Positions 1 to 18,961 of a stretch of DNA of 31,109 nt are shown here, piece by piece (the stretch's first letter is position 1; each line of letters opens with the position of its first letter). A model generated the notes under the pieces. It was given only the letters and a program-made list of their open reading frames with translations, was not told where the DNA came from and did no database searches. The position numbers and the translations under genes are program-made. The stretch spans positions 1 to 31,109 of the IMG/VR virus record IMGVR_UViG_3300021437_000065; one strand, written 5' to 3'. Origin of the DNA: a virus.

Positions 1-133
1 GTTCAAATTTATCAGACAACTTCGCCACATCCCATAAAGATTTGATTCGTTCTGTGGGAATCTTATCAAGCATTCCATCATAAGCATGAACGCACAATCC
101 TCTTGGGGTTTGGAATAAACAGACTCGAATCAT
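1..133 (-). CDS. Small paralogous family protein, cluster A member 1 (partial)
   Basis: The ATG is at 133-131 and the frame stays open to the window edge, so only the first 44 residues are visible. It reads MIRVCLFQTPRGLCVHAYDG at the start and ends inside SLWDVAKLSDKFE. The next gene upstream (174-404) carries a matching N-terminal half and SLWDIAKLSDQFE at the same place, so the two are tandem duplicates. Function is unknown. Its C-terminal signature lies outside the window. Confidence 0.75.
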   Translation of the reverse strand, partial: MIRVCLFQTPRGLCVHAYDGMLDKIPTERIKSLWDVAKLSDKFE

Positions 134-173
134 ACGGTTTTAACCCCGTTTACACAATACAGAAATACGTATT

Positions 174-404
174 TCATAGCTGATGACCAATTTTCTCAAA
201 GCGCAAGAATTGATATTCATCATCAAGAATTATACAGATTCTTGCATGGTTGTTGTCAGTTTCTGGTTCAAATTGATCAGACAGCTTTGCGATGTCCCAC
301 AAAGATTTGACGTACTCTGTTAGTAGCTGTTTGTATTCTACACCATCATAGAAATAAACCTGCAAACCTATCTTTTGCGGATAATACAGACAAACTCTGG
401 TCAT
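174..404 (-). CDS. Small paralogous family protein, cluster A member 2
   Basis: 76 residues. It has a beta-rich start (MTRVCLYYPQ), a predicted helix around SLWDIAKLSD, and the family ending ILDDEYQFLRF followed by a short tail. The ATG overlaps the stop of the upstream gene by 4 nt. An AAGG ribosome-binding site lies in the upstream gene's last codons. It is the closest relative of the partial gene at 1-133. Function unknown. Confidence 0.8.
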   Translation of the reverse strand: MTRVCLYYPQKIGLQVYFYDGVEYKQLLTEYVKSLWDIAKLSDQFEPETDNNHARICIILDDEYQFLRFEKIGHQL

Positions 405-658
405 ACATCAAACCTTACGAAATTGTGGTCTTCATCAGTCGTCACATAGACCGCTCTACCATCAACCCCATCCAAATTTGTGAAAGTATCATCAATTCCA
501 GATACCAAGCCCATTGTTGCGTAATCAATCAGCTTTGCTTCTGTCACTGAATCGAGAACTGCGTGAATCCATCCGCCATATGTATTTGGGCTTTTGTTGA
601 AATAAATCGAATTCGTCCCATCAGGGTGAATCCAAACGTCATAATAAAGCGTTTTCAT
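401..658 (-). CDS. Small paralogous family protein, cluster A member 3
   Basis: 85 residues, one of the longer members. The N-terminal part is MKTLYYDVWIHPDGTNSIYF. The middle motif is YATMGLVSG and the end is TTDEDHNFVRFDV, so both family signatures are present. It overlaps genes on both sides by 4 nt. The extra length lies in a Gly/Asn-rich loop before the helix and in a longer segment before the last strand. No catalytic motif is visible. Confidence 0.8.
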   Translation of the reverse strand: MKTLYYDVWIHPDGTNSIYFNKSPNTYGGWIHAVLDSVTEAKLIDYATMGLVSGIDDTFTNLDGVDGRAVYVTTDEDHNFVRFDV

Positions 659-888
659 TGTGCAATAGTCCTAATAAAGGCGAATTCGTCTGTATCCTTA
701 TTATGGTCTAATTCCAGCCTGAGACTAGCGTAGAAACCATAGCCAGCCGGAGAATAGTGACCTGCAACCTTACCAAGAGTCAACCATTCTTCAAGAATTT
801 TGTTATCATACGGAATAGGATCATGGGTGCCAAATTTATAAAGACACAACCCTTCTGGTTTCTCAACGATAAGCCAACGTTTAGTCAT
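655..888 (-). CDS. Small paralogous family protein, cluster A member 4
   Basis: 77 residues. It pairs with the next upstream gene (885-1112). Both have an LTLGKVAG or FEFGKVAG helix, a conserved Tyr/Phe-Ser-x-Arg-Leu strand (YASLRLELDHN here, FPSVRLNLEYN there) and a DTDEFAF or DTDQYEF end. A GGAG ribosome-binding site 8 nt before the ATG lies in the last codons of the upstream gene. The last residues (FAFIRTIAQ) depart slightly from the usual FVRFL. Confidence 0.8.
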   Translation of the reverse strand: MTKRWLIVEKPEGLCLYKFGTHDPIPYDNKILEEWLTLGKVAGHYSPAGYGFYASLRLELDHNKDTDEFAFIRTIAQ

Positions 889-1112
889 CTGCGAAACTCC
901 AAAAATTCGTATTGATCTGTATCATGATTATACTCTAGATTCAACCGAACAGAAGGAAACCATCCGATTAATGCATCGTTGTGGAATCCAGCGACTTTTC
1001 CAAATTCGAACCAAGTTTTAAGAATGTATGGATCAATGTCTTTAGTGCCACACTCCCCGATTTTATGTAGAGTTAATTCGCCTTGTCTATCGACTATTGT
1101 GTATCGTTTCAA
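885..1112 (-). CDS. Small paralogous family protein, cluster A member 5 (TTG start)
   Basis: 75 residues. The start is a TTG at 1112, inside the stop region of the upstream gene (TGTTGA), with GAGG 5 nt before it. Translation is therefore likely coupled. The sequence MKRYTIVDRQGELTLHKIGE resembles the N-terminus of member 4, and the end is EFLEFRR. Codons for that end also supply the GGAG site for member 4. Confidence 0.78.
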   Translation of the reverse strand: MKRYTIVDRQGELTLHKIGECGTKDIDPYILKTWFEFGKVAGFHNDALIGWFPSVRLNLEYNHDTDQYEFLEFRR

Positions 1113-1315
1113 CAGAACCTCACAAAGTTGCCAGATTTATCAAGTTCAACATAGCAATAAGAGTACAGTTTTGCGATTGAAGCATCGCCGCTAATGGTGG
1201 CGACTCTATATAGATCAATTAACTTTTCTCGTAATGCAGAATCTACAATTGGTTTACCAATCACAGATTCAGTAACTGCGAAAATGTTATTGATAAACAG
1301 AACTTCGTAAATCAT
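1109..1315 (-). CDS. Small paralogous family protein, cluster A member 6
   Basis: 68 residues from the ATG at 1315, which gives the family-like start MIYEVLFINN. A longer frame from a TTG at 1330 is possible but adds five residues with no family match. The helix motif is RVATISGD and the end is ELDKSGNFVRFC. The ribosome-binding site is weak, so translation may depend on coupling with the broken gene upstream. Confidence 0.75.
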   Translation of the reverse strand: MIYEVLFINNIFAVTESVIGKPIVDSALREKLIDLYRVATISGDASIAKLYSYCYVELDKSGNFVRFC

Positions 1316-1320
1316 GGTAT

Positions 1321-1516
1321 CTATGCCCAAGTAAACATAACAAAGTTGAAATCTTCATCAACGATCAAATCGATGTGTGACCGTTTCTCAAGTTTACCTG
1401 AAATTCTAAGAAACGACATAATATCCCATAGTTTATCATTCATTTTTGGGCGAAAGTCCCCATGCTCTCCAATAAACTTCCCCACTATTGATATTACATA
1501 TGATGATATGTTTCAT
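1321..1516 (-). pseudogene. Frameshifted copy of the small-protein family (member 7)
   Basis: The ATG at 1516 opens MKHIIICNINSGEVYWRAWG, which closely matches the next gene upstream (MKHIVICIPKRDKVYWRHWG). The frame ends at a TGA at 1436-1438 after 26 residues. A second frame starts at the ATG at 1443 and continues the same family sequence for 40 residues (MNDKLWDIMSFLRISGKLEK, then a DEDFNFVMF end) to the stop at 1321. Relative to its neighbour the reading frame shifts at an A/T-rich run near 1440. The two halves overlap as ATGAATGA, so re-initiation could still make the C-terminal half. Probably a decaying recent duplicate. Confidence 0.75.
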
Positions 1517-1722
1517 AAATCATTTTTTGACAGTATCTGAACAAAGTTGAAATCTTCATCAACCATCAAATCGACCCATGATTGTTTCTCAAGTTTACCA
1601 GAAATTTTAAGAACTGATAAGATATCCCAAAGTTTATCGTTCATTTCATTGGCGGCGGTGTTGCCCCAATGCCTCCAATAAACTTTGTCACGCTTGGGAA
1701 TGCAAATGACTATGTGCTTCAT
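1513..1722 (-). CDS. Small paralogous family protein, cluster A member 8
   Basis: 69 residues, and the intact partner of the frameshifted copy downstream. The N-terminus is MKHIVICIPKRDKVYWRHWG, the helix motif is LSVLKISGKLEK and the end is VDEDFNFVQI plus a six-residue tail. GAGG lies 5 nt before the ATG, inside the FVRFL codons of the preceding gene. This is the clearest case of the family's C-terminal motif acting as a ribosome-binding site for the next gene. Confidence 0.82.
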   Translation of the reverse strand: MKHIVICIPKRDKVYWRHWGNTAANEMNDKLWDILSVLKISGKLEKQSWVDLMVDEDFNFVQILSKNDL

Positions 1723-1937
1723 AAGAACCTCACGAATTCAAGATCATCGGTCACTTCAACAAAGCAATATTCATCCAGCACAGAAGCCTTGAGAACGCCA
1801 GAAACCTTTGCAAAATCCCAAAAGTCTTTCAGAGCGACAGAAATGAATGCTGATTGACCCCACGTTCCATTAGCGCGTTGTTCCATTTGGTAAACTTGTT
1901 CATACTTGAGAACCCTATTAAGTTGAAACGTTCTCAT
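1719..1937 (-). CDS. Small paralogous family protein, cluster A member 9
   Basis: 72 residues. Textbook member: the helix LKDFWDFAKVSGVLK is followed by the end EVTDDLEFVRFL. The N-terminal half (MRTFQLNRVLKYEQVYQMEQ) is divergent, as in most members. GGA lies 6 nt before the ATG. It overlaps both neighbours by 4 nt. Confidence 0.82.
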   Translation of the reverse strand: MRTFQLNRVLKYEQVYQMEQRANGTWGQSAFISVALKDFWDFAKVSGVLKASVLDEYCFVEVTDDLEFVRFL

Positions 1938-2341: not shown

Positions 2342-2370
2342 ATTATAACCCAGTTTTCAATAAAAGTAAA
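2342..2370 (-). promoter_or_regulatory. Promoter inside cluster A (TTTACT / TATAAT)
   Basis: Reading the minus strand, TTTACT is at 2370-2365, the spacer is exactly 17 nt, and a perfect TATAAT is at 2347-2342. The 13-nt block TTTACTTTTATTG matches five other promoters in the window exactly and one more over its first 12 bases. The -35 directly abuts the stop codon of the upstream family gene at 2371. Confidence 0.8.
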
Positions 2371-3240: not shown

Positions 3241-3433
3241 AGTAGAATTTCACAAAGTCATAGTTTTCATCAATAACCGCGAATACGATATCAAAAGACA
3301 TTTTACCAGCAATCACCCCGATTCTGAAAATGTCTTGGATCTTTACTGGGGCGTCGTATTCAAAAGATGATATACCGGGATATCGGTAATAAATTGCTCC
3401 ACCCTTATCGTAAATGAAAATTGAGGTGTTCAT
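3233..3433 (-). CDS. Small paralogous family protein, cluster A member 16
   Basis: 66 residues and the first member after the nucleotidyltransferase-like gene, which it overlaps by 4 nt. The helix is IQDIFRIGVIAGKMS and the end is VIDENYDFVKFYYD. Coupling to that gene means the promoter at 3982-4009 should drive both it and the following members. Confidence 0.8.
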   Translation of the reverse strand: MNTSIFIYDKGGAIYYRYPGISSFEYDAPVKIQDIFRIGVIAGKMSFDIVFAVIDENYDFVKFYYD

Positions 3434-3975
3434 ACATACTCTTTGGCAATTCTCTTGAAGTCAGACAAGTTCTTTTGGCTAAGAGGAAACCCGGTCAGAT
3501 CAACCTTCCCGGTCTTTATCATCGAGACAATATCTCCAATATCGTGATTCTTCAGCCTCTGTAATTTCAACGCGACTAACCCGCTCACGCTGGCGATTCT
3601 TACCCCTTTGACAACCATAGAAGTTGCGAAAACCTTATCAACGAGAGCGGGCGAAATGTTGACGCTTTTGGGGGTTATTACCTCGACCTCAACGTGAGTC
3701 TTGTTGTGTTGGAACGCGCCTGCTCGAGTACGCTCGAACCCGTTAACCGCATCGGGGATATCAGATTCCAGCTTAAAGAGAATGTCGATATCCATTGTTG
3801 CTCGAGGAACCCCATGGTAGCTGATCGCGTTTCCGCCAATCAGTACGCCTGATTTACAAACGCCAAGCCAATCAGTCGCTGCTGCGATAACTTCTGGAAT
3901 GGCAATCGACTCAACGAGGGTTCTTGTCCCATCGTTGTTTGCATACATCTTTGAAAAGTCTCTAAATGAAATCAT
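3430..3975 (-). CDS. Nucleotidyltransferase-fold protein (minimal NTase type)
   Basis: 181 residues. IGGNAISYHG (46-55) followed by RATMDIDILF (58-67) is the glycine-rich turn plus Asp-x-Asp (D62, D64) of nucleotidyltransferase-fold proteins, as in AbiEii-like and related antitoxin/toxin NTases. A VEVEVI strand may supply the third acidic position. A likely activity is NMP transfer to an unknown substrate; this is inferred from the motif only. It heads the cluster A operon, and its ATG is 6 nt after a TAAAAT -10 box, so its mRNA is probably leaderless. There is no toxin or antitoxin partner next to it unless the small proteins fill that role. Confidence 0.7.
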   Translation of the reverse strand: MISFRDFSKMYANNDGTRTLVESIAIPEVIAAATDWLGVCKSGVLIGGNAISYHGVPRATMDIDILFKLESDIPDAVNGFERTRAGAFQHNKTHVEVEVITPKSVNISPALVDKVFATSMVVKGVRIASVSGLVALKLQRLKNHDIGDIVSMIKTGKVDLTGFPLSQKNLSDFKRIAKEYV

Positions 3976-3981
3976 ACGGCT

Positions 3982-4009
3982 ATTTTACCCGAATCTCAAT
4001 AAAAGTAAA
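3982..4009 (-). promoter_or_regulatory. Promoter for the NTase gene and cluster A
   Basis: On the minus strand TTTACTTTTATTG begins at 4009, and TAAAAT lies at 3987-3982 with a 16-nt spacer from TTTACT. The -35 sits in the T-rich tail of the terminator hairpin at 4009-4024, so a terminator and a promoter share bases. The -10 is 6 nt before the NTase ATG. Confidence 0.75.
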
Positions 4010-4024
4010 GGGGCCGAAGCCCCT
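4001..4024 (-). terminator. Rho-independent terminator with UUCG loop
   Basis: On the minus strand AGGGGC, loop TTCG and GCCCCT form a perfect 6-bp stem, followed by TTACTTTTATT. It lies immediately after the secreted nuclease gene and ends the helicase operon. Its tail is also the -35 region of the next promoter. Confidence 0.8.
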
Positions 4025-4027: not shown

Positions 4028-4669
4028 TTAAAAATTACCTGCGTTCTCCAGTAGCCTCCCCACATCCACTGGACTCATCGTTTGTATCTTGGCCAGCGCG
4101 TTGTTATCTGCATAGTAATAGTCCATCCCGTCTGTGCGGTACACAATCTTCCAGTAACCGTTTGGAATCGGGATACCATTCAACCGCTCTGCGTGCGAGT
4201 AAATGGCGATAGTCAGAACCCAGATATTCTGAGTCACAGTCAACTTCCTTACCTTGTCCTCAAGCAACCTCCAGGCTATCTCGTTCAGCTTGGGGTTCTG
4301 AGGCGTCATGTTACTCAACAAGAAGGTCGAGAACATTTCCTCATCGGACGAGGCGTCATCAGCCGGAGCCATATGGCCTCGGTCGTAGCCTGAACGCAGA
4401 TAATCAGACAGCTTTGGGCCTGCCTTACCAAGGCGGTCGTCAGGGCGAAACGCATCCTTACGCTTTACTGAGCCAACCTTACCTGAAATGAGCTTCTCGG
4501 ACACTGCGATAACGGCCTTGTTATTGGTATCATACATTGACACGTAAAAGCCAGAACAAAGCTCGACCGTATCTGGAACGCTCAACGGTTTCCCGTTCGG
4601 ATACAGGTCTGGACAGGCGGCGAACGCGACCCCGTAGAGCGCGAGCATGATAGCAAATAATTTTTTCAT
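4028..4669 (-). CDS. Secreted DNA/RNA non-specific endonuclease (NUC1 type)
   Basis: 213 residues. Residues 1-18 form a signal peptide (MKK, hydrophobic core, AFA-type cleavage site). DRGHMAPA at 96-103 is the catalytic motif of the Serratia nuclease family, with H99 as general base. MTPQNPKLNEIAW supplies the Mg-binding Asn (about N129). The family cuts DNA and RNA with little sequence preference. The signal peptide places it in the periplasm or outside, which is unusual for a gene at the end of a replication operon. It may destroy DNA entering from competing phages or degrade DNA at lysis; both are inference. AAGGAAG precedes the ATG. The terminator lies just downstream. Confidence 0.85.
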   Translation of the reverse strand: MKKLFAIMLALYGVAFAACPDLYPNGKPLSVPDTVELCSGFYVSMYDTNNKAVIAVSEKLISGKVGSVKRKDAFRPDDRLGKAGPKLSDYLRSGYDRGHMAPADDASSDEEMFSTFLLSNMTPQNPKLNEIAWRLLEDKVRKLTVTQNIWVLTIAIYSHAERLNGIPIPNGYWKIVYRTDGMDYYYADNNALAKIQTMSPVDVGRLLENAGNF

Positions 4670-4863
4670 ATCTTCCTTAAAACTGGTAAGGCGTAACCAA
4701 ATTGGTCTTCCTTGTTCCAGGTGTGTGTTTCAACCAACGAGCCAAGTTTCCAAAAGGGTACTGACTCAACCTTCATCCGGTCACTCTTCTCATAAAAGTA
4801 GAACCGTCCCCGGGAGGTCTGCGCCTCCTTCAGTGGAACCTTGAAAAGTTCTCGAACTTCCAT
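4666..4863 (-). CDS. Hypothetical protein (65 aa)
   Basis: 65 residues, charged, with aromatic pairs (RFYFYEKSD, FWKLGSLVETHTW). I do not recognise it. The ATG overlaps the stop of the helicase gene by 1 nt and its own stop overlaps the nuclease ATG by 4 nt, so it is translated within that operon. It has no signal peptide or membrane segment. Confidence 0.65.
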   Translation of the reverse strand: MEVRELFKVPLKEAQTSRGRFYFYEKSDRMKVESVPFWKLGSLVETHTWNKEDQFGYALPVLRKI

Positions 4864-6272
4864 CAGAACTTAAACCCCGAAGTGTCAATGGGCTTTGCTC
4901 GGATGGTAGCAATATCAGGCGCAGCGTCCTGGTTCGGCTTACCCCTTGGTGCATAGGTCTTGTTGACTGCCTCCTGAAGCAGCGTCTGATCGCCATCATC
5001 AACCGAGAAGAAGGTCATCTTTGGACGATCAAGCCCCAATAGGAACCGCTTGTCCTGCCCAGGGTCAGAGTAACGGTTCTTCAGCTGCTTCACCATAATT
5101 GTACCCTGCTCGTCCAGTTCCTCAGTACGAATCAAGGCAAACAACATATCCAAAGTCATCACCAGACCCATCGAGTCGGCAATCGAGGTCATATCCACAT
5201 CAGATGAAGAAAACCCAGACCGATTCAACTGAACTGCCGTTAGTACTGGAACGTCATACTCAACCGCCAAACCGCGTAACTCCTCAGCCACTGCCTTTAG
5301 GTATGAGTACGAGTTAACCGAACCGCCCATCTTGATTCGACTTGAAGCACAAATACCAAGGTAATCAATCAAAATCAACTCTGGCTCAAACTTCTGCTTC
5401 AGCTTCAGTTCTTCCAGTAGAGCTCTAAAGTGACCTGCGTGCGCTGACCCGGTTGGATACTCCTTGATGAACAGCCGACCATGAGTCTTTGCCTGAATAT
5501 TGGATACCTTTGTGGAGAACTCATCCTTACTCATTTCACCGAGCTTGTTGATATCCACCCGCATCAGGTTTGCGTCGATACGCTCAGCGATACGCTCCTC
5601 AGCCATTTCTAGGGTAATATACAACACGTCGCGACCCTGAGCAACGGTGGCAGCAGCAGTATCGCACAGGAAAATCGACTTACCCCCGCCTGACTCAGCA
5701 GCCACTGCGATGAGCGACTTGTTGGCCATACCGCCCTGAGAGATCTTATTCATCATCTTGGTTCTGAATGGGATCTTCTTTTCCTGCTTGTTATAGAACT
5801 CCCACCGAGCCTCAGCATCACCCATATACGAGTGCCCAACCGCAGTGTCAAAGGATACCGATAACGCCTCTGTCATCAGCCCGGGAATCGCATCCTGAGT
5901 CAAGTTGGCATCATTACCCTCGATGATTGAAATTGACTTCAACACCGCATTGTACACTGACTTCTGCTTGCAGAACTTCTCAGTATTCTCAGTCAACCAA
6001 TCAACATTCACCGCCTCTGCTGGTAACGCCTCAACCAACCCACACGAGGTCTCAAACGCCCCCTCAGTCAGATCAGCCCGGTTACTCAGCTGAACCTTCA
6101 GAATATCCTTACTCACAGGAGCAGAATACTTCCCAAAGAAACTGACAATCTCATCCAGAATCACCTTCTCATGCTTATCCTGAAAGTACGCAGCATCCAG
6201 AAACGGTATCACATTACGAGCGTATGCCTCATTATTCAACAACCCTGCGAGAATCTGTTCTTCGATACGCAC
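4863..6272 (-). CDS. 41: Replicative DNA helicase, T4 gp41 (DnaB-like)
   Basis: 469 residues against about 475 in T4 gp41. It is the hexameric 5'-3' helicase that unwinds the fork ahead of the leading-strand polymerase and works with primase. The N-terminal domain is at about 1-140. The RecA-type core has Walker A AAESGGGKS (191-199), LEMAEERIAERIDAN as in gp41, and Walker B LILIDYLGI (299-307), followed by AVQLNRSG. The start is a GTG at 6272 with GGAGG 7 nt upstream. The stop of the preceding gene overlaps this start. No intein interrupts it, unlike UvsX just upstream. Confidence 0.95.
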   Translation of the reverse strand: MRIEEQILAGLLNNEAYARNVIPFLDAAYFQDKHEKVILDEIVSFFGKYSAPVSKDILKVQLSNRADLTEGAFETSCGLVEALPAEAVNVDWLTENTEKFCKQKSVYNAVLKSISIIEGNDANLTQDAIPGLMTEALSVSFDTAVGHSYMGDAEARWEFYNKQEKKIPFRTKMMNKISQGGMANKSLIAVAAESGGGKSIFLCDTAAATVAQGRDVLYITLEMAEERIAERIDANLMRVDINKLGEMSKDEFSTKVSNIQAKTHGRLFIKEYPTGSAHAGHFRALLEELKLKQKFEPELILIDYLGICASSRIKMGGSVNSYSYLKAVAEELRGLAVEYDVPVLTAVQLNRSGFSSSDVDMTSIADSMGLVMTLDMLFALIRTEELDEQGTIMVKQLKNRYSDPGQDKRFLLGLDRPKMTFFSVDDGDQTLLQEAVNKTYAPRGKPNQDAAPDIATIRAKPIDTSGFKF

Positions 6273-6596: not shown

Positions 6597-7181
6597 TTAA
6601 TCTTCCAGCTCATCCATAGTAGCGTCGATATCCTCATCGGTTAGGATAGCGCCGTTTGAAATCTTGTACTTTGCTTCAACCCATTTGGCAAAATAATCAC
6701 ACTTCAAGATACTGTCCCAGAACTCGCGATTGTCAGTATCTGCCATTCGATACTTCTTCTCATCGACTTCCCCGGTGATTTTATCAACCTTCTGATACCA
6801 ACCATTTGATGGTTTGATCACGTTACCAGACTCGAGGGCCATATCCATAAGGCCAGACCATCGGCTGATACCGCCTTTGTGGGTGACTGTGATTGGGATT
6901 TTAGATTTCTCTCGAGTTGTTCTGGACTTCTCAATATTGATAACAAAGTTATACCCAACAACCTCTGTTCCGTCCTTCTCCTGTTGCCGTCCGATAATCC
7001 AAATATCATCTGATGAATAGTAGATTCCCGTGTTATGAGAAACTACGCCATTCTCCAACAGATAATGCGAACAATCGGCGACGCTGATATCATAGACTTT
7101 CTTCTTCCCCACTGGGGTTATTCTTTTTACGCGCAGCCCACCACAATCGCCTAGCTTCTGCCATTTTTCTACGTTGTTCAT
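6597..7181 (-). CDS. uvsX: UvsX recombinase, C-terminal half with C-intein (split-intein gene)
   Basis: 194 residues from the ATG at 7181. Residues 1-50 are an intein C-half ending KKKVYDISVADCSHY, then LLENGVVSHN, with the splice-site Asn as residue 50 (codon 7034-7032). The +1 extein residue is Thr. Residues 51-194 are the C-terminal part of UvsX. TGIYYSSDDIWIIGRQQ continues T4 UvsX after its Gly-Gly-Gly L2-loop motif, and INIEKSRTTREKSK and SGLMDMALE are further T4-like blocks. A longer frame begins with GTG at 7226. The first 92 nt overlap, in another frame, the end of the endonuclease gene. Trans-splicing with the 7784-8689 product should rebuild a UvsX of about 354 residues. Confidence 0.88.
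   Translation of the reverse strand: MNNVEKWQKLGDCGGLRVKRITPVGKKKVYDISVADCSHYLLENGVVSHNTGIYYSSDDIWIIGRQQEKDGTEVVGYNFVINIEKSRTTREKSKIPITVTHKGGISRWSGLMDMALESGNVIKPSNGWYQKVDKITGEVDEKKYRMADTDNREFWDSILKCDYFAKWVEAKYKISNGAILTDEDIDATMDELED
7032..7181 (-). other. C-terminal split-intein segment
   Basis: This codes for about 50 residues, of which the last 36 or so match the usual C-intein pattern: a VYDISV block, His-Tyr, then GVVSHN before Thr. The penultimate His and terminal Asn are the residues that cyclise during splicing. No endonuclease domain is fused to it. Most of it is double-coding with the GIY-YIG gene. Confidence 0.85.
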
Positions 7182-7746
7182 CAGTTTTTGGTCTTCCACG
7201 TTGTTTATCTCCGATTTTCTTACCACTAATTAATTTCGTTTCTTCGGTATGTTTCCTACCGAAGAAACCGTTTTGCTCACCGCTTCTTCCCCTCTTCTTC
7301 CTCTCTTCTTCGCTAAACGATACTCCCTTAGAAACTCCGACCCATTCCCCCGACAGAACTTTCGGGTGCGCTCTGGGCAACCTACAAACTTTACCAGTCC
7401 CAACATGTTTATACGTAGCATATTCTGGGTCGCTATAATTAGAAATCGTTGCGATAGCTTTGTTGAAGAATTCAGGTGAAGCAACCACGTCGTTCGAAAT
7501 ATGGGTATCTCGTTCTGCTAGTATCGCCTCGTTGAACGTGTCAAACGTCCCTAGAATCTGAACCGCGTAATCAGAACAATATTTCATTATATTCTGATAT
7601 TCTTTATCAGTTGAAGACCCAACGTAGGGCCTTCCGGACTTGTCAAAGATCCTACCTTCGACGACTTCGCAGTTAGATTTACTCCCTATGTATTTGTTTG
7701 GGAAGGTTTCTCTGTTTATTTTTATCAAATATACTATGTGTTTCAT
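7090..7746 (-). CDS. GIY-YIG homing endonuclease inside the split uvsX locus
   Basis: 218 residues. The N-terminal GIY-YIG nuclease motif reads IVYLIKINRETFPNKYIGS, and AERDTHISND followed by FFNKA supplies the conserved Glu and Asn of this fold. The C-terminal DNA-binding part has NUMOD3-type repeats (NGFFGRKHTEETKLISGKKI and a KTDEQRRKMAEARR copy). Such enzymes cut intron- or intein-less alleles and spread their own locus by homing. Here it lies between the two uvsX halves, so uvsX lacking the break is the probable target. The ATG follows a perfect hairpin that could hide its ribosome-binding site. Confidence 0.88.
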   Translation of the reverse strand: MKHIVYLIKINRETFPNKYIGSKSNCEVVEGRIFDKSGRPYVGSSTDKEYQNIMKYCSDYAVQILGTFDTFNEAILAERDTHISNDVVASPEFFNKAIATISNYSDPEYATYKHVGTGKVCRLPRAHPKVLSGEWVGVSKGVSFSEEERKKRGRSGEQNGFFGRKHTEETKLISGKKIGDKQRGRPKTDEQRRKMAEARRLWWAARKKNNPSGEEESL

Positions 7747-7773
7747 ACCTGTACCTAAGTTATCGGTACAGGT
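7747..7773 (-). promoter_or_regulatory. Hairpin covering the endonuclease start region
   Basis: A perfect 9-bp inverted repeat (ACCTGTACC / GGTACAGGT, 9-nt loop) ends directly at the ATG of the GIY-YIG gene. The only AGG-type ribosome-binding bases before the ATG are in or beside the right arm. In early transcripts reading through from uvsX the hairpin should repress endonuclease translation. Confidence 0.6.
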
Positions 7774-7780
7774 ATTTATT
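7773..7780 (-). promoter_or_regulatory. Late-promoter-like octamer before the endonuclease gene
   Basis: The minus strand reads AATAAATA, 7 of 8 matches to the T4 late promoter TATAAATA. A start about six bases downstream would fall within the left arm of the hairpin, giving an mRNA that cannot form it. This resembles the known control of the T4 I-TevI gene. The single mismatch keeps the call weak. Confidence 0.35.
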
Positions 7781-7783
7781 AAA

Positions 7784-8059
7784 TCACAACTTCAAGACCT
7801 CGTCGTCTACAATTAGATCTTCAGCGTCAACCCAACCGTCATGAGTCAAGAACGGATGTTGTCCAGAAACGGTAACAACATATCCGTCCTCAAATTCGAT
7901 CTCGAGGCATTCGGGTTCACCAAACTCCAACGTCTCTGGCGTCCAAGTATGCGTGACCAGTTTCTCCCCCTCTAGCGTACAGACGATATCGCCAACAACG
8001 ATTTCCTCAATAGATTTTAGGCCAGAAATCGTTTGAATCTGAGTTTTCTCCAACAGACA
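7784..8059 (-). other. N-terminal split-intein segment
   Basis: It starts with the Cys codon at 8059-8057. CLLEKTQIQTISGLKSIEEI, then VVGDIV, is a typical intein block A. The GQHPFLTHDGW stretch contributes the block B-type His. The segment ends with DAEDLIVDDEVLKL and a stop, where a contiguous mini-intein would continue into its C-half. The 91-residue size is in the range of known split N-inteins. Confidence 0.88.
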
Positions 8060-9613: not shown

Positions 9614-10943
9614 TTAAAAGAACTCATCCAGTGACGAGGTCTCAATTGCGTTCCAATTGATTGCGTCCAGAATAACGCTCATCGCAGCAAGGAAAGTCTT
9701 TTCAAACTGCAACTCATAATCCACGTTTCCAATAACCCCAAACTCAGCGGGCAACTCCCCCTCGACTGGGAATGCAATGATATTCTCGCGAATCTTATTT
9801 GGAGTCTTCAAATAAATGAACTTGACCTTTGACCCCTCGGTGATCAGCCGATACTTGCCCGTCAACCCCAGCTTCTTCAGGTAGTGGTTATACAACAGCG
9901 CTGCCCTCACGTGTACTGGACATCCCTTCTTGTATATAGTAGTTGCGTCAGAGTACTCGTCCAGGTTATTGGCGCCTCTTGGGAATGCAACCTGATCATA
10001 GGGGAGTCGCATGAACTCATCGCGTACCTGGGCAATATACGCCTGAGTTTTCTGCTCGTCTCCATCGAAAATAATATCCAGCGCACTCTTCAGTTTATCT
10101 CGGACAAATCGCGGGGTTGAGCTTCGCACCATCTCTAGTCCCTTGACCTTGAACTTTGGTTGGGAATACGTTACGCCCTCACTTGAGTGGACCTTCAGCA
10201 CGTAGCGTTTCTTGCCAGCCCAGATAGCTGCGCTACAGGAGGTTTCCAGTTTGAAGGAAAGCCGATTCTCATACGAGTTCATCTTGGTGCAGCACTGCTC
10301 GCAAAACTTGTTGACGATCGGGGTGAGTTTGTCAATAGCAAGTTTCTCAATCGTTTTGATTGCTTTGTCATCAGAAACGTTGAATTTCTTGAATGCAACA
10401 TCCAAAGTGTAATACAGCGAATCCGTATCAATGTAGACGAGATACTTCTCGTTTCTGGTTCCGAACAACGCATTCAGTTCAGCGTCGATCTTGTCCTCAA
10501 TAGTTCTCAGTACGTACTGTCCAGTCAGAGTGATGCTGGCAGCGTGATCGTGTTTGAAGAACCGGAAATGCTCGTTCGCAGTCGCACCATATCATTTGTG
10601 TTCAGATTGAGTCGTTAATTCAATCCCGGTATTTCACCAGCTACATGTTACCACGCAGATCAGACTATATCACACACCACTTGGGTGTCTCCCCGTTTCC
10701 ACCCACTTGGGTGTACGCCGTTCGGCTAGTCGTTGAACCTTCCTATTTCTAGGCTTGGCTGCTGATTGTCCCATAGGGAGTTTCCAGCAATTAAAGGAGT
10801 TTTCTAGATGCGTCGCCGCACCAAGCCCCATATTAGTCTAGGGAATTGAGCAACACTTTTATCGCTTGTTGTTCGGCGTCAAGCGCAGAGATTTTACTCT
10901 CGATTGCCTTCGCTTTGAGTTTTAATTCTTCAGTTCGTTTCAT
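9614..10943 (-). CDS. 43B: DNA polymerase gp43, C-terminal polypeptide (spliced gene)
   Basis: Two exons, 10943-10840 and 10592-9614, give 360 residues after removal of the intron at 10593-10839. The ATG at 10943 has an AAAGGG site before it. Exon 1 ends in motif B, with K29, N33 and, across the splice, Y36-G37 (KVLLNSLYG). Exon 2 has SITLTGQ and motif C YIDTDS (catalytic D90 and D92). Motif B Lys to motif C Asp is 61 residues, the same spacing as I recall for RB69 polymerase. The tail SSLDEFF resembles the clamp-binding peptide of T4-type polymerases. It should assemble with the N-terminal polypeptide to form the replicative polymerase. The first 25 residues are strongly charged and helical. 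Confidence 0.9.
10593..10839 (-). ncRNA. Group I self-splicing intron in the polymerase motif B
   Basis: 247 nt. The reading frame is closed here on the minus strand but joins perfectly if 10839-10593 is removed: AATTCCCT plus ATATGGTGCG gives Asn-Ser-Leu-Tyr-Gly. The 5' exon ends in T and the intron ends in G, as group I introns require. Core elements visible are GGTTCAACGACTAG (P7-type 5' strand), GATATAGTCTGATCT (P7-type 3' strand), and an AATTGCTGGAAACTCC to AATCAGCAGCCAAGC P4/P6 region. There is no ORF inside. Subgroup IA is suggested by extra paired sequence between the P7 strands, but the fold was not computed. Confidence 0.88.
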
Positions 10944-10962
10944 ATGCCCTTTCGTTACGCCA

Positions 10963-10991
10963 ATTATAGTTTGCAATGAATAATAACAAAA
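10963..10991 (-). promoter_or_regulatory. Promoter between the two polymerase genes
   Basis: On the minus strand TTTTGT (10991-10986), a 17-nt spacer and TATAAT (10968-10963). The -35 touches the stop codon of the N-terminal polymerase gene. The 19-nt leader carries an AAAGGG ribosome-binding site. A separate promoter supports 43B being an independent gene rather than the product of a sequencing frameshift. Confidence 0.65.
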
Positions 10992-12449
10992 TTATTCGAT
11001 CGAAGCGAGTTCTTGATGAATCTCTTCCAACTCCTGCTCAAGCCGCAACATTTCGGTTTTGGCCTTCTTTCGCATTGCCATATACTCTTCAACTAACCGA
11101 GGCAATACCCCGCGCACGTCGCGTCGATAGACCGCCCCGATAGGGGTTACGATATTACCCCCGGTATCAATTGAATTTCCAGCAAGGAAATCGTCAATCG
11201 TCGCCCCACAATTACCAACCCAAGTTTCAGGGCTGATATTATTGGTCATGATAATACTAGGGTATAGACTGGTTGCATCAAGCGAAACAACGTTCTTATA
11301 CCAACCTGGAACTGGCTCCTTCACATAAGCCCCGTCTAAAAACTGAGCCCGTTCCCTATCCTGCTGCGGGAGAACCACATTGTTCTTGATACAGTCATTT
11401 GTGATGATAGCGTCCCAAACCTTCACAGGCGATGACACGTCCTCGTAGTTGACGTTGGCCTTATACGCGACTGTCAATACCAACTCAATCAACCGCAGCT
11501 TATCGTCCAGCTGCTTGATCAGGAGCGCATCAACGCAGTTATAATCGGTAAACAAATTCCAATCAGTACGGTGAAACTCATTCCACGATTTGAATTGACT
11601 GTGATCAAGTTTCGTGTGACCCAACTCAACCATCGCAATATGCTGGAGTGAGTATGATTCCTGTTTGGTGAGGATATACTTCTTGTAGAGATCAATGTAG
11701 TCAAGAACAGATACGCCAAGAATCTCAACGGCGAACTCGCGCTTACCCTTGAATTCTCTTTCTCGACAAGAAACGCGACCCCAAGGCGATAATCGCTTGA
11801 TCGCGTCTTCCCCTAGAATAGAAGTAATTCTATTAATCAGATAGGGTAAGTCAAACTGCGCCACGTTCCAGCCCGTTATGATATCAACGCGCTTTTGTTC
11901 CCAGAAGTTGATAAACTGCTTAAGCAATTCCTTCTCGGAAGAACAATCCATGTAGCTGGTTTTGGCTTTCCCAGTATATCCATTGACGCCGAAGGTGAAT
12001 GCCTGTTCGGTAATCATATTGACCAAGGTGATCAGCAGTACCTTGGCCTTGGCTGTTCCAGGGTCTGGAAACTCAGTATTACCATCAGCGTCTTCAACCA
12101 CCTCAGTCTCAATGTCAACGCTCCAGCTGCTCAGGTAGGAGTAATCCCAAGCGGTCGAGCCGTACTCATTCATAAACTGAAGGGAGTAGTTCAGCTGACC
12201 GAAAATCGGAAAACCGTCAACTCCATCATACTTCTTAACGAACTCTCGACAGTCAACAATCGAACCCGGCTGGATAGGGTATGCATCATCGCCGTAGAGG
12301 GTTTTAAATGGTGACTGGATGCCCTTTTGTTGACCCTTACCGTATAGGGTCGGTTTCCACTGAACTTTTCGGTTGTTCGGAATACCGTCAATAACCTCGC
12401 GAACCAGAACAGTGCTGCCCTGGATTGCCACATTTGTATAAAATTTCAT
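10992..12449 (-). CDS. 43A: DNA polymerase gp43, N-terminal polypeptide
   Basis: 485 residues covering the N-terminal domain, the 3'-5' proofreading exonuclease and the first half of the palm. Exonuclease motifs are WSVDIETE (D112, E114), TGWNVAQFD (D200) and DYNCVDA (D307). Polymerase motif A is SLDATSLYPSII (D391). The protein then runs into a charged helix (EEYMAMRKKAKTEMLRLEQE and on) and stops in the fingers before motif B. T4 gp43 has about 898 residues; the two polypeptides here sum to 845. The ATG overlaps the stop of the DexA-like gene by 4 nt. Split gp43 genes are known in some T4-related Aeromonas phages. Confidence 0.92.
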   Translation of the reverse strand: MKFYTNVAIQGSTVLVREVIDGIPNNRKVQWKPTLYGKGQQKGIQSPFKTLYGDDAYPIQPGSIVDCREFVKKYDGVDGFPIFGQLNYSLQFMNEYGSTAWDYSYLSSWSVDIETEVVEDADGNTEFPDPGTAKAKVLLITLVNMITEQAFTFGVNGYTGKAKTSYMDCSSEKELLKQFINFWEQKRVDIITGWNVAQFDLPYLINRITSILGEDAIKRLSPWGRVSCREREFKGKREFAVEILGVSVLDYIDLYKKYILTKQESYSLQHIAMVELGHTKLDHSQFKSWNEFHRTDWNLFTDYNCVDALLIKQLDDKLRLIELVLTVAYKANVNYEDVSSPVKVWDAIITNDCIKNNVVLPQQDRERAQFLDGAYVKEPVPGWYKNVVSLDATSLYPSIIMTNNISPETWVGNCGATIDDFLAGNSIDTGGNIVTPIGAVYRRDVRGVLPRLVEEYMAMRKKAKTEMLRLEQELEEIHQELASIE

Positions 12450-14617: not shown

Positions 14618-14880
14618 GGAGACACCACCAGAAGTTGTTTGGGTTTCATTGAATTCTGCATCTCAACCAACCCTGACGCCACATCTTTGCTGCGGTGCAG
14701 GTACGTGTCGGTTGCCAGATCAAAAAAGAAAACCTGTTTGTCTCGTTCCTCATAGTACACGTTTACCACCTTGTGTGAGGTGACCTCGCCAAACCGACCT
14801 CGATAGCCCAGTTTGACGCCCTGATAGAACGCAGCGCAGATACCGATAAGGGCTGCGATGATAATGAAGATTATTTCCAT
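14599..14880 (-). CDS. Membrane-anchored hypothetical protein between gp44 and gp62
   Basis: 93 residues. One N-terminal hydrophobic helix (IIFIIIAALIGICAAFYQGV) is followed by a charged soluble part with a beta-like NVYYEERDKQVFFFDL segment. It overlaps gene 44 by 10 nt and gene 62 by 19 nt, so it is built into the clamp-loader operon. I do not recognise it. Membrane tethering of a replication factor is possible but purely inferential. Confidence 0.7.
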   Translation of the reverse strand: MEIIFIIIAALIGICAAFYQGVKLGYRGRFGEVTSHKVVNVYYEERDKQVFFFDLATDTYLHRSKDVASGLVEMQNSMKPKQLLVVSPCPRST

Positions 14881-15812
14881 TTTGCCCCGATCATAAGCTC
14901 AACAAAGCAAGCAGCCATGAGAATCTGCGTATCAGCCACCATTGAGGTCTTGTACGTATAGTCGCCAAGGGTCACAATAACGCTGGGAATACAGCTTGGT
15001 TCCATCAGGTCAGCTGCTCGGTCGTAAAACGTACGAAAGATTTCTACCGGGGGAATATCGGTATTTGTGCCAACCCATTTTCGCATTTCTCCAAAGTTTT
15101 TGTCTTTGATGAAGGTCACTAACTCGTCAAACTTTGTCTCGGTCTGATTGACCAGAATACCACTATCAATCGAGCCTGACGTGGAGTACCGCTGAAGCTC
15201 GTTCAGAGTACGCCGGAAGTCAGGGTAGAACTTCTTCACCAGTTCAGCAACCGAGGCCTTGTCGAAGGCGATCTTTTCCTCGTTCAGGATACCGATAACC
15301 CGCTTGAAGAACTGGGTCTGCAACTTACCTGCCTCTACCTTATCTGACTTGAACTCGATTTTCGTACAACGACTATGAATTGCATCAATAATCTTGTTGG
15401 GGAAATTGCAGGTAAAGATGAACCGGGTATTCTTGAACTCTTCAATAACGCCTCGCAGCGACTGTTGAGTGGCCGTCGTGGAACCGTCAAACTCATCAAG
15501 AACAACAATTTTGTTCCCGCCACTCAGGGAGATTGATGAGGAAAACTGCACAACCCGAGTGCGAATGGTGTCGATATTACCCTCAAGCGAGGCGTTGATA
15601 AACATCAAGTCAGCCTCAGTCTCATTAGCCACAATACGCGCCAAGGTTGACTTGCCTGTACCGGCAGACCCAACCAACAACAGATGTGGCAGCTGACCGT
15701 TGTCGATTGCCTCACGTATCATCTTTTTGGTTGATTCAGGTAGAATCGCATCAGCCAATTTGGCAGGCCGATACTTTTCAGCCCAGACTAACCCATTCAA
15801 ATCATCACTCAT
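14871..15812 (-). CDS. 44: Clamp-loader large subunit gp44 (AAA+ ATPase)
   Basis: 313 residues, near the 319 of T4 gp44. Walker A is GSAGTGKST (48-56), Walker B VVLDEFD (103-109), sensor 1 region FIFTCNFPNK, and the SRC arginine-finger motif is at 147-149. WAEKYRP near the N-terminus is typical of clamp loaders. It forms a tetramer that opens the gp45 ring with ATP and places it at primer ends together with gp62. GGAG precedes the ATG. Confidence 0.95.
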   Translation of the reverse strand: MSDDLNGLVWAEKYRPAKLADAILPESTKKMIREAIDNGQLPHLLLVGSAGTGKSTLARIVANETEADLMFINASLEGNIDTIRTRVVQFSSSISLSGGNKIVVLDEFDGSTTATQQSLRGVIEEFKNTRFIFTCNFPNKIIDAIHSRCTKIEFKSDKVEAGKLQTQFFKRVIGILNEEKIAFDKASVAELVKKFYPDFRRTLNELQRYSTSGSIDSGILVNQTETKFDELVTFIKDKNFGEMRKWVGTNTDIPPVEIFRTFYDRAADLMEPSCIPSVIVTLGDYTYKTSMVADTQILMAACFVELMIGAKWK

Positions 15813-16163: not shown

Positions 16164-16391
16164 CTAAACAAATGATATGAAATTGTCGGCATCGTCGAAT
16201 TCCGCATCATAGAACGCAGACGCAGTTTGCTTATAGTTTCGGTCAATGACTCCAGATATCTTGGCTGCGTCGTGTAATTGTACCATTATCGTTGTTCTAT
16301 CATGATCCATCACACCAATAGAATCTAATCCGAAAACTTCAAACGATAATTCACCATTATCGTCAAACACGTAACATCTATAAGTTTTCAT
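16164..16391 (-). CDS. Small paralogous family protein, cluster B member 13
   Basis: 75 residues. It is a clear tandem duplicate of the next gene upstream: MKTYRCYVFDD against MRTYRCYILDG, and HDAAKISGVIDRNYK against HDLAKITGVIERNYK. The end is FDDADNFISFV. It is the last member of cluster B before the replication genes. Confidence 0.8.
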   Translation of the reverse strand: MKTYRCYVFDDNGELSFEVFGLDSIGVMDHDRTTIMVQLHDAAKISGVIDRNYKQTASAFYDAEFDDADNFISFV

Positions 16392-16618
16392 AAGAATTGA
16401 ATGAAATTTGAATTGTAGTCAAGGGTTACATCGTAGTAATCACATTTAGTTAGTTTGTAGTTACGTTCTATGACGCCAGTTATTTTTGCTAAGTCATGCA
16501 ATTTTATCACAGAATTCCTAGTAATTATGTCTACCATAACGCTTTGGTACTCAATGCAATGGACTTCATAGCGCGGTTCCTCAACGCCATCAAGTATGTA
16601 ACAACGATATGTTCTCAT
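16388..16618 (-). CDS. Small paralogous family protein, cluster B member 12
   Basis: 76 residues. Partner of the gene above (16164-16391), with the end LDYNSNFIQFL. No ribosome-binding site lies before its ATG, which overlaps the previous stop by 4 nt, so it should be translated by coupling. Confidence 0.8.
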   Translation of the reverse strand: MRTYRCYILDGVEEPRYEVHCIEYQSVMVDIITRNSVIKLHDLAKITGVIERNYKLTKCDYYDVTLDYNSNFIQFL

Positions 16619-16830
16619 AAAACGAAACTGTGAAATGATAAGTCGTCATTTAGATTTACTTCGAAGTACCGTTGTTTAATCCCAATTTTGATTGCACCAG
16701 AAACCAAGGCCGCAGGAAATAAGTCAATGACCAATTGTTCAACTTCGCGTATGACTGCATAGTTAGCGGAGCGTTTCCTGATTTCAATGACGCGAAATAT
16801 ACCGCTTTCCCAACACCGATAAGTTTTCAT
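16615..16830 (-). CDS. Small paralogous family protein, cluster B member 11
   Basis: 71 residues. It belongs to the FHSFVL subgroup, with the end FEVNLNDDLSFHSFVL shared with members 4 and 5 of this cluster. The middle is LFPAALVSGAIKI. The N-terminus MKTYRCWESG resembles the MKTYRCY genes next to it, so it may be a mosaic of two subgroups. Confidence 0.8.
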   Translation of the reverse strand: MKTYRCWESGIFRVIEIRKRSANYAVIREVEQLVIDLFPAALVSGAIKIGIKQRYFEVNLNDDLSFHSFVL

Positions 16831-17051
16831 AAGAATTGAATAAAATTTAAATCGTCATCAAGCTCAACTTTGAACTTATGGAAAATTCTCCCAGTTGACA
16901 TTTTACCAGAGACTTTTGCAAAATCAGCCAATCCAACCACCGCCTGATATTCTCTCGCAGTATTCTTGAAGTAGCCCATCGCGGTGGAAGAAACTGATAT
17001 TTTATCGGGATAATCGCCCTCTGCGTAATCGTCATAGTAATAATAAATCAT
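16827..17051 (-). CDS. Small paralogous family protein, cluster B member 10
   Basis: 74 residues. The start MIYYYYDDYAEGDYPDKI is tyrosine- and aspartate-rich. The helix is VVGLADFAKVSGKMS and the end is ELDDDLNFIQFL, close to the family consensus. A 3-nt gap separates it from the upstream gene. Confidence 0.82.
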   Translation of the reverse strand: MIYYYYDDYAEGDYPDKISVSSTAMGYFKNTAREYQAVVGLADFAKVSGKMSTGRIFHKFKVELDDDLNFIQFL

Positions 17052-17054
17052 ACA

Positions 17055-17240
17055 TCAAAACGTCACAAAATTATGTTCATCATCAAGAACCACATAGAGA
17101 TATTCACGCTTGAGTTTACCAGAGACTTTTGCAAAATCCCACAATGACTGCGCAATCTCATCTGAGATTAATTTGTCTATTCCACCAGACCTATGATGGA
17201 TCAAGCCGTGTTTATCAACTCTTATGAAATAGAGAATCAT
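17055..17240 (-). CDS. Small paralogous family protein, cluster B member 9
   Basis: 61 residues. The helix is AQSLWDFAKVSGKLKR and the end VLDDEHNFVTF. The SLWDFAK stretch is like the SLWDIAK of cluster A member 2, which links the two arrays. GGAG from the preceding gene's FVEFE codons lies before the ATG. Confidence 0.82.
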   Translation of the reverse strand: MILYFIRVDKHGLIHHRSGGIDKLISDEIAQSLWDFAKVSGKLKREYLYVVLDDEHNFVTF

Positions 17241-17461
17241 TCAAACTCCACAAAGTTCATTTCATCGTCCAAGACAAAATTAACGAAATCTCCATATTTG
17301 TATCTCCGTGTGCGACCCGAAATTTTAGCAAATTCAAAGATGTCATTTGCTTTCTCATCAGTCATCCTAGGGGTTAGTCTAGGGATTAGTCCGTACCCAC
17401 CTCGTCTACCATGTATGAGTGTACCTCTTTCAGAATCGGTCTGGATGTAGTAATTGATCAT
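17237..17461 (-). CDS. Small paralogous family protein, cluster B member 8
   Basis: 74 residues from the ATG at 17461, which gives a 4-nt ATGA overlap with the upstream gene; a TTG at 17473 is the alternative. The start is MINYYIQTDSERGTLIHGRR, the helix ANDIFEFAKISGRTRR and the end VLDDEMNFVEFE. Confidence 0.82.
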   Translation of the reverse strand: MINYYIQTDSERGTLIHGRRGGYGLIPRLTPRMTDEKANDIFEFAKISGRTRRYKYGDFVNFVLDDEMNFVEFE

Positions 17462-17733
17462 GCGTTTGTCCAACCTCGATCCTTGAAGAACTTAGAATCA
17501 ATAGAGAAACGGGAGAATTTCAAATCGTCGTCCAGTACGATGACAAAACCTTCTCGAAACGTATCGCCAGTTTTTACCCTACCAGATAATTTTGCAAAAT
17601 CTAAAAACTTCTTAACGCTCTCAAAAATGTGAGAACCAGCAAGATGTGTCTTCACCTCTTCGTTGTATTCATCACAGAACACCCTAACATCTTCTGAACC
17701 GTCTTGATAAACGACATAGGCATAATGTTTCAT
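17458..17733 (-). CDS. Small paralogous family protein, cluster B member 7 (longest)
   Basis: 91 residues, the longest member. The helix is VKKFLDFAKLSGRVKT and the family end is VLDDDLKFSRFSID. An extra 13-residue tail (SKFFKDRGWTNA) continues past the normal stop position. The tail may be a read-through into what was once the next gene's leader. Confidence 0.8.
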   Translation of the reverse strand: MKHYAYVVYQDGSEDVRVFCDEYNEEVKTHLAGSHIFESVKKFLDFAKLSGRVKTGDTFREGFVIVLDDDLKFSRFSIDSKFFKDRGWTNA

Positions 17734-17927
17734 ACAAATCTCACAAATTCCAAGGCATCGTTCATTTCAACAATTGTGTGTTCGTTAACGTCGCAGATTC
17801 TGATACTCCCAGAAATTCTGGCAAAATTCAATATCTCAATTGCGCGATCATCTGAAATTCTATTGATTCCATAATCGCCATGGAGCAGTTCTCCACTGAA
17901 ATAACGAATAATGAAGTAACGGATCAT
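17730..17927 (-). CDS. Small paralogous family protein, cluster B member 6 (probably leaderless)
   Basis: 65 residues from the ATG at 17927. MIRYFIIRYFSGELLHGDYG is followed by the helix AIEILNFARISGSIR and the end EMNDALEFVRFV. The ATG is 5 nt after a TGGTATAAT extended -10, so the message probably starts at the initiation codon. Confidence 0.8.
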   Translation of the reverse strand: MIRYFIIRYFSGELLHGDYGINRISDDRAIEILNFARISGSIRICDVNEHTIVEMNDALEFVRFV

Positions 17928-17932
17928 AATCA

Positions 17933-17961
17933 ATTATACCACAAAACTATGGAAAGTCAAA
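17933..17961 (-). promoter_or_regulatory. Promoter inside cluster B (TTTGAC / extended -10)
   Basis: On the minus strand TTTGAC (17961-17956), a 17-nt spacer and TATAAT (17938-17933), preceded by TGG, an extended -10. It lies within the last codons of the upstream family gene. It resembles a host sigma70 promoter more than the TTTACT group does. Confidence 0.7.
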
Positions 17962-18164
17962 TCATCGTTCAAGTTGACTTCAAAGTAAATTTCAACATTA
18001 CCCCAAACTTCAGCCGCACCAGCAATTTTCGCCATTGGTAGTAGACTGGCGACGAATTCTCTAACTTCTAGACTGACTATGCGACCATGAACGTGACCGC
18101 TATTGAGCAAAACCACATTATAATTATGCCCATCGGTGCTACCATAATAACGGCAGGTTTTCAT
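17934..18164 (-). CDS. Small paralogous family protein, cluster B member 5
   Basis: 76 residues. Recent duplicate of the next gene upstream (18161-18382): SLLPMAKIAG and NLNDDLTFHSFV are identical in both and the DNA there is nearly the same. The last codons contain the -35 and spacer of the promoter at 17933-17961. Confidence 0.82.
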   Translation of the reverse strand: MKTCRYYGSTDGHNYNVVLLNSGHVHGRIVSLEVREFVASLLPMAKIAGAAEVWGNVEIYFEVNLNDDLTFHSFVV

Positions 18165-18382
18165 AAAACGAAACTATGGAAAGTCAAATCATCGTTCAAG
18201 TTAACGTCGAATCGAGTCGAACCATCACCCCAAATGTCAGTCACACCGGCAATTTTCGCCATCGGTAGTAGACTGGCTATGTATTCGTCGCCAAGGGTTG
18301 TTGTTGCAAATTCGAAGTAACGGTACGCGAACACTTTGTAATTCTGCCCATCAGCGTCGCCCCAATAGAGAAACTTTTTCAT
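18161..18382 (-). CDS. Small paralogous family protein, cluster B member 4
   Basis: 73 residues. It starts MKKFLYWGDADGQNYKVFAY; the helix region is SLLPMAKIAGVTDIWG and the end NLNDDLTFHSFVL. Its DNA near the end has the same TTTGAC-like bases as its duplicate but no TATAAT, so no promoter is predicted. Confidence 0.82.
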   Translation of the reverse strand: MKKFLYWGDADGQNYKVFAYRYFEFATTTLGDEYIASLLPMAKIAGVTDIWGDGSTRFDVNLNDDLTFHSFVL

Positions 18383-18606
18383 AAGAATTCGACAAATTTC
18401 AGATCATCGTCTAACCTGACTTCAAAATGTTCGCTTTGTGACCAAACCACAAGTTTTCCAGAAATCTTTGCGAATTCAATCAGCCCAATAACAGCAGCGA
18501 ATTCTTTTGAATCTTTACTATGAAAGGTTGCGTTCGTATCTGAAAATTTGAAAGAACAAACCGACTCGCCTCCATTCAACATCGCAACGTATCTATAATT
18601 TCTCAT
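18379..18606 (-). CDS. Small paralogous family protein, cluster B member 3
   Basis: 75 residues. The helix is AVIGLIEFAKISGKLV and the end RLDDDLKFVEFL. AVIGLIEFAKISGK is close to AVVGLADFAKVSGK of member 10, so these two share a recent origin although six genes lie between them. AGG from the preceding gene is the ribosome-binding site. Confidence 0.82.
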   Translation of the reverse strand: MRNYRYVAMLNGGESVCSFKFSDTNATFHSKDSKEFAAVIGLIEFAKISGKLVVWSQSEHFEVRLDDDLKFVEFL

Positions 18607-18767
18607 TTGATGAACCTAATAAAGTTTAAATCATCATCAAGTTCAACGCAGCAATCATCCTCATCCGCATTTCCAGAAATTCTTGCAAGCGCCAACAGGC
18701 TGTAAGCAAGTTCCGCGTCAAGCGAAGATATGATCCCACTGCAGCCTTCAACGATACTGTAAATCAT
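18603..18767 (-). CDS. Small paralogous family protein, cluster B member 2 (shortest)
   Basis: 54 residues, the smallest complete member: MIYSIVEGCSGIISSLDAEL, then LLALARISGNADEDD and CCVELDDDLNFIRFIK. It retains both signatures with almost nothing else, so it defines the minimal unit of the family. It overlaps each neighbour by 4 nt. Confidence 0.75.
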   Translation of the reverse strand: MIYSIVEGCSGIISSLDAELAYSLLALARISGNADEDDCCVELDDDLNFIRFIK

Positions 18768-18961
18768 ACTAGGAAACAATTAAAAGTAAAATCATCATCT
18801 AACTTGACGTCGACATACCTTGGCGTCGCGCCTTGTATTTTACCACTTATTAGGGCCAGATTCCAAATGTCTTGAATTATTTTATCTGGGACTCGACTAT
18901 AATGGCAAGAATTGTGTCCGACGATTTTGCCATTATAATCTTCATAAATGAACACGATCAT
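18764..18961 (-). CDS. Small paralogous family protein, cluster B member 1
   Basis: 65 residues. The start is MIVFIYEDYNGKIVGH, the helix IQDIWNLALISGKIQG and the end KLDDDFTFNCFLV. It is the first family gene of this cluster; the gene before it codes for a membrane protein and overlaps it by 4 nt. Confidence 0.82.
   Translation of the reverse strand: MIVFIYEDYNGKIVGHNSCHYSRVPDKIIQDIWNLALISGKIQGATPRYVDVKLDDDFTFNCFLV

Follow-up and report, generated by a model that had tools for sequence, protein, structure and literature searches.

T4-like phages are known for a few small anti-defence genes, which they amplify under pressure. In T4, TifA (gp61.4) is an inhibitor of ToxN, and Dmd is an inhibitor of the toxins RnlA and LsoA (PDB 5hy3, 5i8j). 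The T4 region that holds dmd, tifA and adfA has been described as a possible anti-toxin-antitoxin (anti-TA) island, and when T4 is placed under toxIN selection, dmd and tifA are amplified in tandem through short repeats (PMC9391042). Here we describe a virus fragment in which 33 related tiny genes, all on the minus strand, lie in three arrays of 16, 13 and 4 copies (A, B and C in Table 1). Array A is located downstream of gene 41, from which three genes separate it.

The fragment is IMG/VR record IMGVR_UViG_3300021437_000065, and its whole length of 31,109 bases is called the window below. Judged by its replication genes, it is from an uncultured T4-like phage and is placed in the T4 superfamily, since these genes match those of T4-like phages. 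The gene 41 helicase has about 50% identity to T4-like cyanophages, the clamp loader 44 has 47% identity to Stenotrophomonas phage DLP6, and a DUF932 protein has 44% identity to Acidovorax phage ACP17. No close kin were returned, the best helicase match being 53% in a viral collection that possibly lacks very near records. The genes for the clamp loader 44 (14871-15812, -) and the sliding clamp 45 (27446-28105, -) are about 12 kb apart, with array B and other accessory genes between them; in DLP6, HTVC008M and Melnitz-3 the two are neighbours or nearly so.

Several other features of the window are listed in Table 1. The endonuclease, which has a signal-peptide-like N-terminus, sits between gene 41 and array A, and the DUF6036 gene matches AbiEii with an E of only 0.0097, under the AbiEii cut-off. 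The UvsX locus resembles a split intein accompanied by a homing endonuclease: what looks like an intein start (CLLEKTQIQT) closes the N part, an intein end opens the C part, which also bears the T4 UvsX C-terminal domain, and between the two parts is an ORF (7090-7746) carrying a NUMOD3 motif. The ORF with a GIY-YIG-like start is probably a further homing endonuclease. The intron in the DNA polymerase gene (10641-10849) scores 77 bits as Rfam Intron_gpI, and the 886-aa repetitive protein has no PHROGs match.

Table 1. Positions in the window of the small-protein arrays, the promoter-like motifs and other features.
Feature	Position	Strand	Basis or remark
Array A, 16 members, open at contig end	1..3433	-	ORFs, alignment, HMM, leave-out tests
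Array A, stop coordinates of first 8 members	2, 174, 401, 655, 885, 1109, 1321, 1513	-	ORFs
Array A, stop coordinates of last 8 members	1719, 1934, 2123, 2371, 2601, 2807, 3007, 3233	-	ORFs
Member cut by contig end	1..133	-	profile match E 9.6e-6, model positions 1-45
15-codon remnant MKYVFLYCVNGVKTV	130..177	-	sequence
Member with one-base frameshift relative to neighbour 1513-1722	1321..1516	-	both frames translated
Array B, 13 intact members	16164..18961	-	ORFs; array A-trained HMM 13/13
Array B, stop coordinates of first 7 members	16164, 16388, 16615, 16827, 17055, 17237, 17458	-	ORFs
Array B, stop coordinates of last 6 members	17730, 17934, 18161, 18379, 18603, 18764	-	ORFs
Array C, 4 members	30042..30955	-	ORFs; HMMs from array A or B find 4/4
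Array C members	30042-30308, 30311-30529, 30526-30747, 30740-30955	-	ORFs
TTTACTTTTATT copies	2359, 3998, 20504, 20862, 26278, 27434, 30029	-	exact matches
Promoter-like TTTACT-17-TATAAT inside array A	2342..2370	-	motif match
Promoter motif copy ahead of DUF6036 gene and array A	3974..4010	-	motif match
Promoter motif copy ahead of genes leading into array B	20480..20516	-	motif match
DUF6036 nucleotidyltransferase-like gene	3430..3975	-	PF19502 E 5.7e-6
DNA/RNA non-specific endonuclease	4028-4669	-	PF01223 E 2e-34
Replicative helicase gene 41	4863..6272	-	identity about 50% to T4-like phages
UvsX recombinase gene in two ORFs	6597-8722	-	sequence; weak PF14890 match (intein end of C part)
ORF of 300 aa, GIY-YIG-like start	8676-9578	-	upstream of and overlapping UvsX N part
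DNA polymerase gene, two parts	9614-12449	-	group I intron between
Small membrane-protein-like ORF	18958..19107	-	translation judged hydrophobic by eye
PAAR-like protein (82 aa) beside Ser/Gly/Val-rich repetitive protein (886 aa)	20874-23779	-	
Two tRNA genes, Ser (tga) and Thr (tgt)	26604-26774	-	

The initial annotation had counted a family of 33 members in three clusters of 16, 13 and 4, and all three clusters were found at the positions it gave, on the minus strand. The number of genes also stands, with the qualification that 31 are intact, one (1321-1516) is frameshifted and one (1-133) is truncated by the contig end. Since this last copy runs off the contig, array A must be longer than what is seen. 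The members are 54-92 residues long, mostly 60-78, and the family genes take up about 22% of the fragment. Decay is visible in array A, where the frameshifted copy is split into an N part of 26 aa and a C part of 40 aa and has 85% DNA identity to its neighbour 1513-1722 over 107 nt. The 15-codon remnant, which lies between copies 1-133 and 174-404 with an ATGA overlap on each side, resembles a member's first hairpin.

That all these genes form one homologous family was examined with HMMs trained on a single cluster each, which avoids circularity, against a background of 10,313 ORFs from related contigs, 479 ORFs of the window and 990 shuffled members. With the array A model, every one of the 17 B and C members scored better than all background, the weakest having an E of 0.29 and the best background sequence one of 1.7. 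The array B model achieved this for 11 of the 16 A members and all four of C, and the array C model, with only four training sequences, for 19 of 29 in A and B. In leave-out tests, copies 3233, 2123, 401, 3007 and 30042 were clear, and copies 655 and 885 were marginal, with E values of 0.049 and 0.61 where the best background reached 0.95; membership of these two is supported by their position in the chain and by the predicted fold of 885. A profile of the whole family finds exactly 33 matches within the window. A model from one cluster thus recovers members of the others over background, which confirms that the 33 genes are paralogues, as had been proposed.

Two divergent members were modelled with AlphaFold2. 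The model of 18764..18961 (-), built from all 31 rows, has a pLDDT of 93.4 and a pTM of 0.80, and that of 885..1112 (-), built from array A rows only, has a pLDDT of 95.1 and a pTM of 0.82. Both are predicted with the same elements in the same order, strand-strand-helix-strand-strand (ββαββ), so that the predictions support the shared fold suggested beforehand, a compact one. The conserved positions are an A or G and a G near the helix end, in the AKISG stretch, a D-rich turn that is partly conserved, and an F-x-x-F in the last strand. The strongest of them (F in 31 of 31 members, F in 28, G in 28, A or G in 29) are of structural type, and no invariant residue of catalytic type is present in the alignment of the 31 members. 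For this reason an enzymatic role appears unlikely from the alignment. DNA mimicry was rejected as well, the median net charge being only -2.7. With neither an enzyme nor a DNA mimic, the proteins would be left as many versions of one binding scaffold.

The copies are very divergent, with about 20% identity. As the initial annotation had observed, the half before the helix (mean pairwise identity 16%) varies more than the half from the helix onward (26%). It had read this pattern as that expected if the variable part meets different targets, which the data do not show. In every pair and half tested pN is lower than pS, so diversifying selection was not detected, and in the youngest pairs synonymous divergence is also greater in the N half; in the pair 17934/18161, pS is 0.63 in the N half and 0.32 in the C half. 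Because synonymous sites too diverge more there, the variability of the N half is not by itself evidence of selection, and recombination or drift could contribute to it. A mosaic origin of the two halves is not claimed here: C-half identity is higher with a Fisher p of 0.04 in one pair and not significantly so in five others. The proteins themselves are under constraint, since pN is about 0.3-0.5 while most pairs have reached, or almost reached, saturation at synonymous sites.

In the tree, each of the three sister pairs with the best support (16164/16388, 17934/18161 and 655/885) consists of genes that lie next to each other, which speaks for local copying and agrees with what had been seen by eye for these pairs. 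Copies also moved between sites, as members of different clusters are to some extent mixed among one another in the tree (7 label changes vs 13.2 in shuffles).

Within the clusters, 21 of 30 junctions are exact 4-nt (ATGA) overlaps when refined starts are used, which is fewer than the "nearly all" of the initial annotation; at the remaining junctions the genes either overlap by 8 nt or are separated by 2-40 nt. ATGA coupling joins the DUF6036 gene to array A at its first member, and the membrane-protein-like ORF likewise to array B. The possibility that conserved C-terminal codons act as the Shine-Dalgarno of the next gene turned out to be only partly true, with AGG or GAG found at several junctions and missing at many. 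The sequence TTTACTTTTATT has seven exact minus-strand copies, each followed by a short spacer and a TATAAT-like box. When up to two mismatches are allowed there are 14 matches vs 4.6 expected, a number that 0 of 100 shuffles reach. We read this motif as a phage-specific promoter, early or middle, a timing that we infer. The copy at 3974-4010 is preceded by a terminator-like hairpin, and the promoter-like site inside array A lies upstream of member 2123-2335, where the ATGA chain is interrupted. The T4-type late promoter TATAAATA is absent from the arrays; its sole occurrence, at 24264, is outside them, and one is expected by chance. The family genes are marked as accessory by their low GC3 (0.39 vs about 0.55 in core genes), and they use the Arg codons AGA and AGG far more than core genes do.

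Relatives of the family were sought in many ways. Even at E 10, any given family of Pfam, PHROGs or NCBIfam is matched by one of the 31 members at most, and consensus sequences reach a best E of 0.08 against the same collections. Solved structures searched by sequence give a best E of 0.48. PADLOC matches one member to PDC-M62A (E 0.001) and the other 30 to nothing; as no other member has such a match, it is probably due to chance. The initial annotation knew of no named family that fits, and this opinion holds across Pfam, PHROGs, NCBIfam and PADLOC, where the profile search, too, assigns the family to no characterised one. A tblastn of all members concatenated against phages gave a single chance match, and six members searched by tblastn against plasmid records gave none. 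Viral contigs scanned with family peptides or motifs yielded no relative, and the family profile found no match in about 80 related T4-like records, sets from which near kin of the fragment are possibly absent; the window, as positive control, gave 33. A motif scan of genome contigs returned 57 loci that agree with the motif only, and what a fold search of BFVD returned was weak only, all of it phage proteins without a characterised role, at an E of 0.057 for the best and probabilities of up to 0.91. Within the reach of these searches, the protein family is new. The literature covered, which lacks most subscription papers, has no account of a comparable array in a phage.

It is useful to ask how unusual such an expansion is. 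Identical BLAST clustering finds a 16-member small-protein cluster in the window, and no small-protein cluster of at least three in ACP17, Moby or T4. In DLP6 it finds one of size 4 and another of size 3; judged from where they lie and how they read, both give the impression of shadow frames or repeat artefacts. Even without a counter-defence role, a family without detectable relatives that fills about 22% of a 31-kb fragment is unusual, as three related phages and T4 have no comparable small-protein family in the same BLAST test.

As to purpose, host-takeover, anti-defence and decoy roles are all possible, and the strongest pointer is the genomic context. Our preferred reading, held tentatively, is that the arrays are a repertoire of inhibitory binding proteins, probably for counter-defence. 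A small ββαββ domain, probably non-enzymatic and binding, would have multiplied through local duplication within operons behind a phage promoter motif, its copies being made together via coupled translation and diverging into a repertoire. Each copy would most likely bind and block a different host factor, the likeliest targets being defence proteins such as the toxins of toxin-antitoxin systems, as with Dmd and TifA of T4. The position and the operon setting speak for counter-defence without proving it; against it, the sequences have no apparent homology to a known inhibitor, and only array A lies near the T4 anti-TA position. Next in rank, but unlikely, is that the members are modulators of host takeover which bind the transcription, translation or metabolic machinery of the host and not defence proteins. 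It would suit this that the proteins are small and that their operons, which have a common promoter motif, adjoin replication genes, and T4 has many small takeover genes, among them srd and srh, which are postulated to be sigma decoys; however, a fixed set of machines hardly calls for 33 diverging copies, and no member is similar to a known modulator. More doubtful still is a diversified binding repertoire in which a constant C-terminal scaffold carries a fast-varying N-terminal face, supplying dozens of inhibitors against varying host defences and being renewed by duplication and recombination within the coupled operons.

The coupling of the genes can also be taken to mean that related subunits made together pack into a hetero-oligomer via the conserved C-terminal hairpin. 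The 21 ATGA junctions, and a hairpin that is conserved while the N half varies, are what one would see in this case, but the fold alone can explain the conservation, and about 20% identity, three separate arrays and one broken copy make such a complex improbable. The same broken copy, together with the 15-codon remnant and the local duplicates, could be taken as a sign of largely neutral expansion, where low-GC genes prone to recombination are copied and then decay, each copy having little function. This we consider just as improbable, since 31 copies have kept open frames and core residues despite synonymous saturation in most pairs, and capsid size limits useless DNA, of which about 22% of the fragment would then consist.

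When the family is compared with known systems by fold, VIA puts ATP-grasp subdomains first for both models, with a Z of about 5; the C-terminal subdomain (for example PDB 8e1j, 3t9c, 5d8d) has a similar beta-beta-alpha-beta-beta arrangement (Z 5.5, 2.2 angstrom, 54 residues), but the family members lack the remainder of the enzyme. No full ATP-grasp catalytic domain with nucleotide-binding residues was found in these proteins of 54-92 residues, which conserve A or G, G, F, F and partly the D turn, and a Z below 8 may reflect a common arrangement only. Dmd of T4 is alike in being a 60-residue protein encoded directly downstream of gene 41. It differs in being single copy and in lacking the conserved G and the F-x-x-F signature of the family. 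With the invariant AEVN and E-x-D as the sequence criterion for Dmd, hhalign of the 31 members against eight Dmd-type proteins gave a probability of 0.3%. In Foldseek against solved structures, Dmd ranks 3, 16 and 20 with weak scores (E 0.8-2.3, probability at most 0.20), the best of the three being rank 3 with E 0.80 and probability 0.20; it is not among the best 50 VIA matches listed for either model, which excludes nothing. TifA is an 85-residue counter-defence protein of T4 from the same genome region, and hhalign against the single TifA sequence gave a probability of 0.6% over 7 columns. As the profile comparisons fail and the fold likeness to Dmd is weak, the family is not counted with either protein. 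The T4 anti-TA context nevertheless supports the suggestion that its members may work like Dmd and TifA. On the T4 map, dmd and tifA come directly after gene 41, and array A does so only roughly. The T4 copies are recent repeats made by selection, whereas those of the fragment are deeply diverged; that a T4-like phage should amplify small accessory proteins has a precedent, but not at such scale or divergence. If the counter-defence reading is true, these at least 33 copies would be a natural, deeply diverged counterpart of the T4 amplification, a long-term record of an arms race, and would provide a ready pool of candidates for inhibiting bacterial defences as yet unknown.
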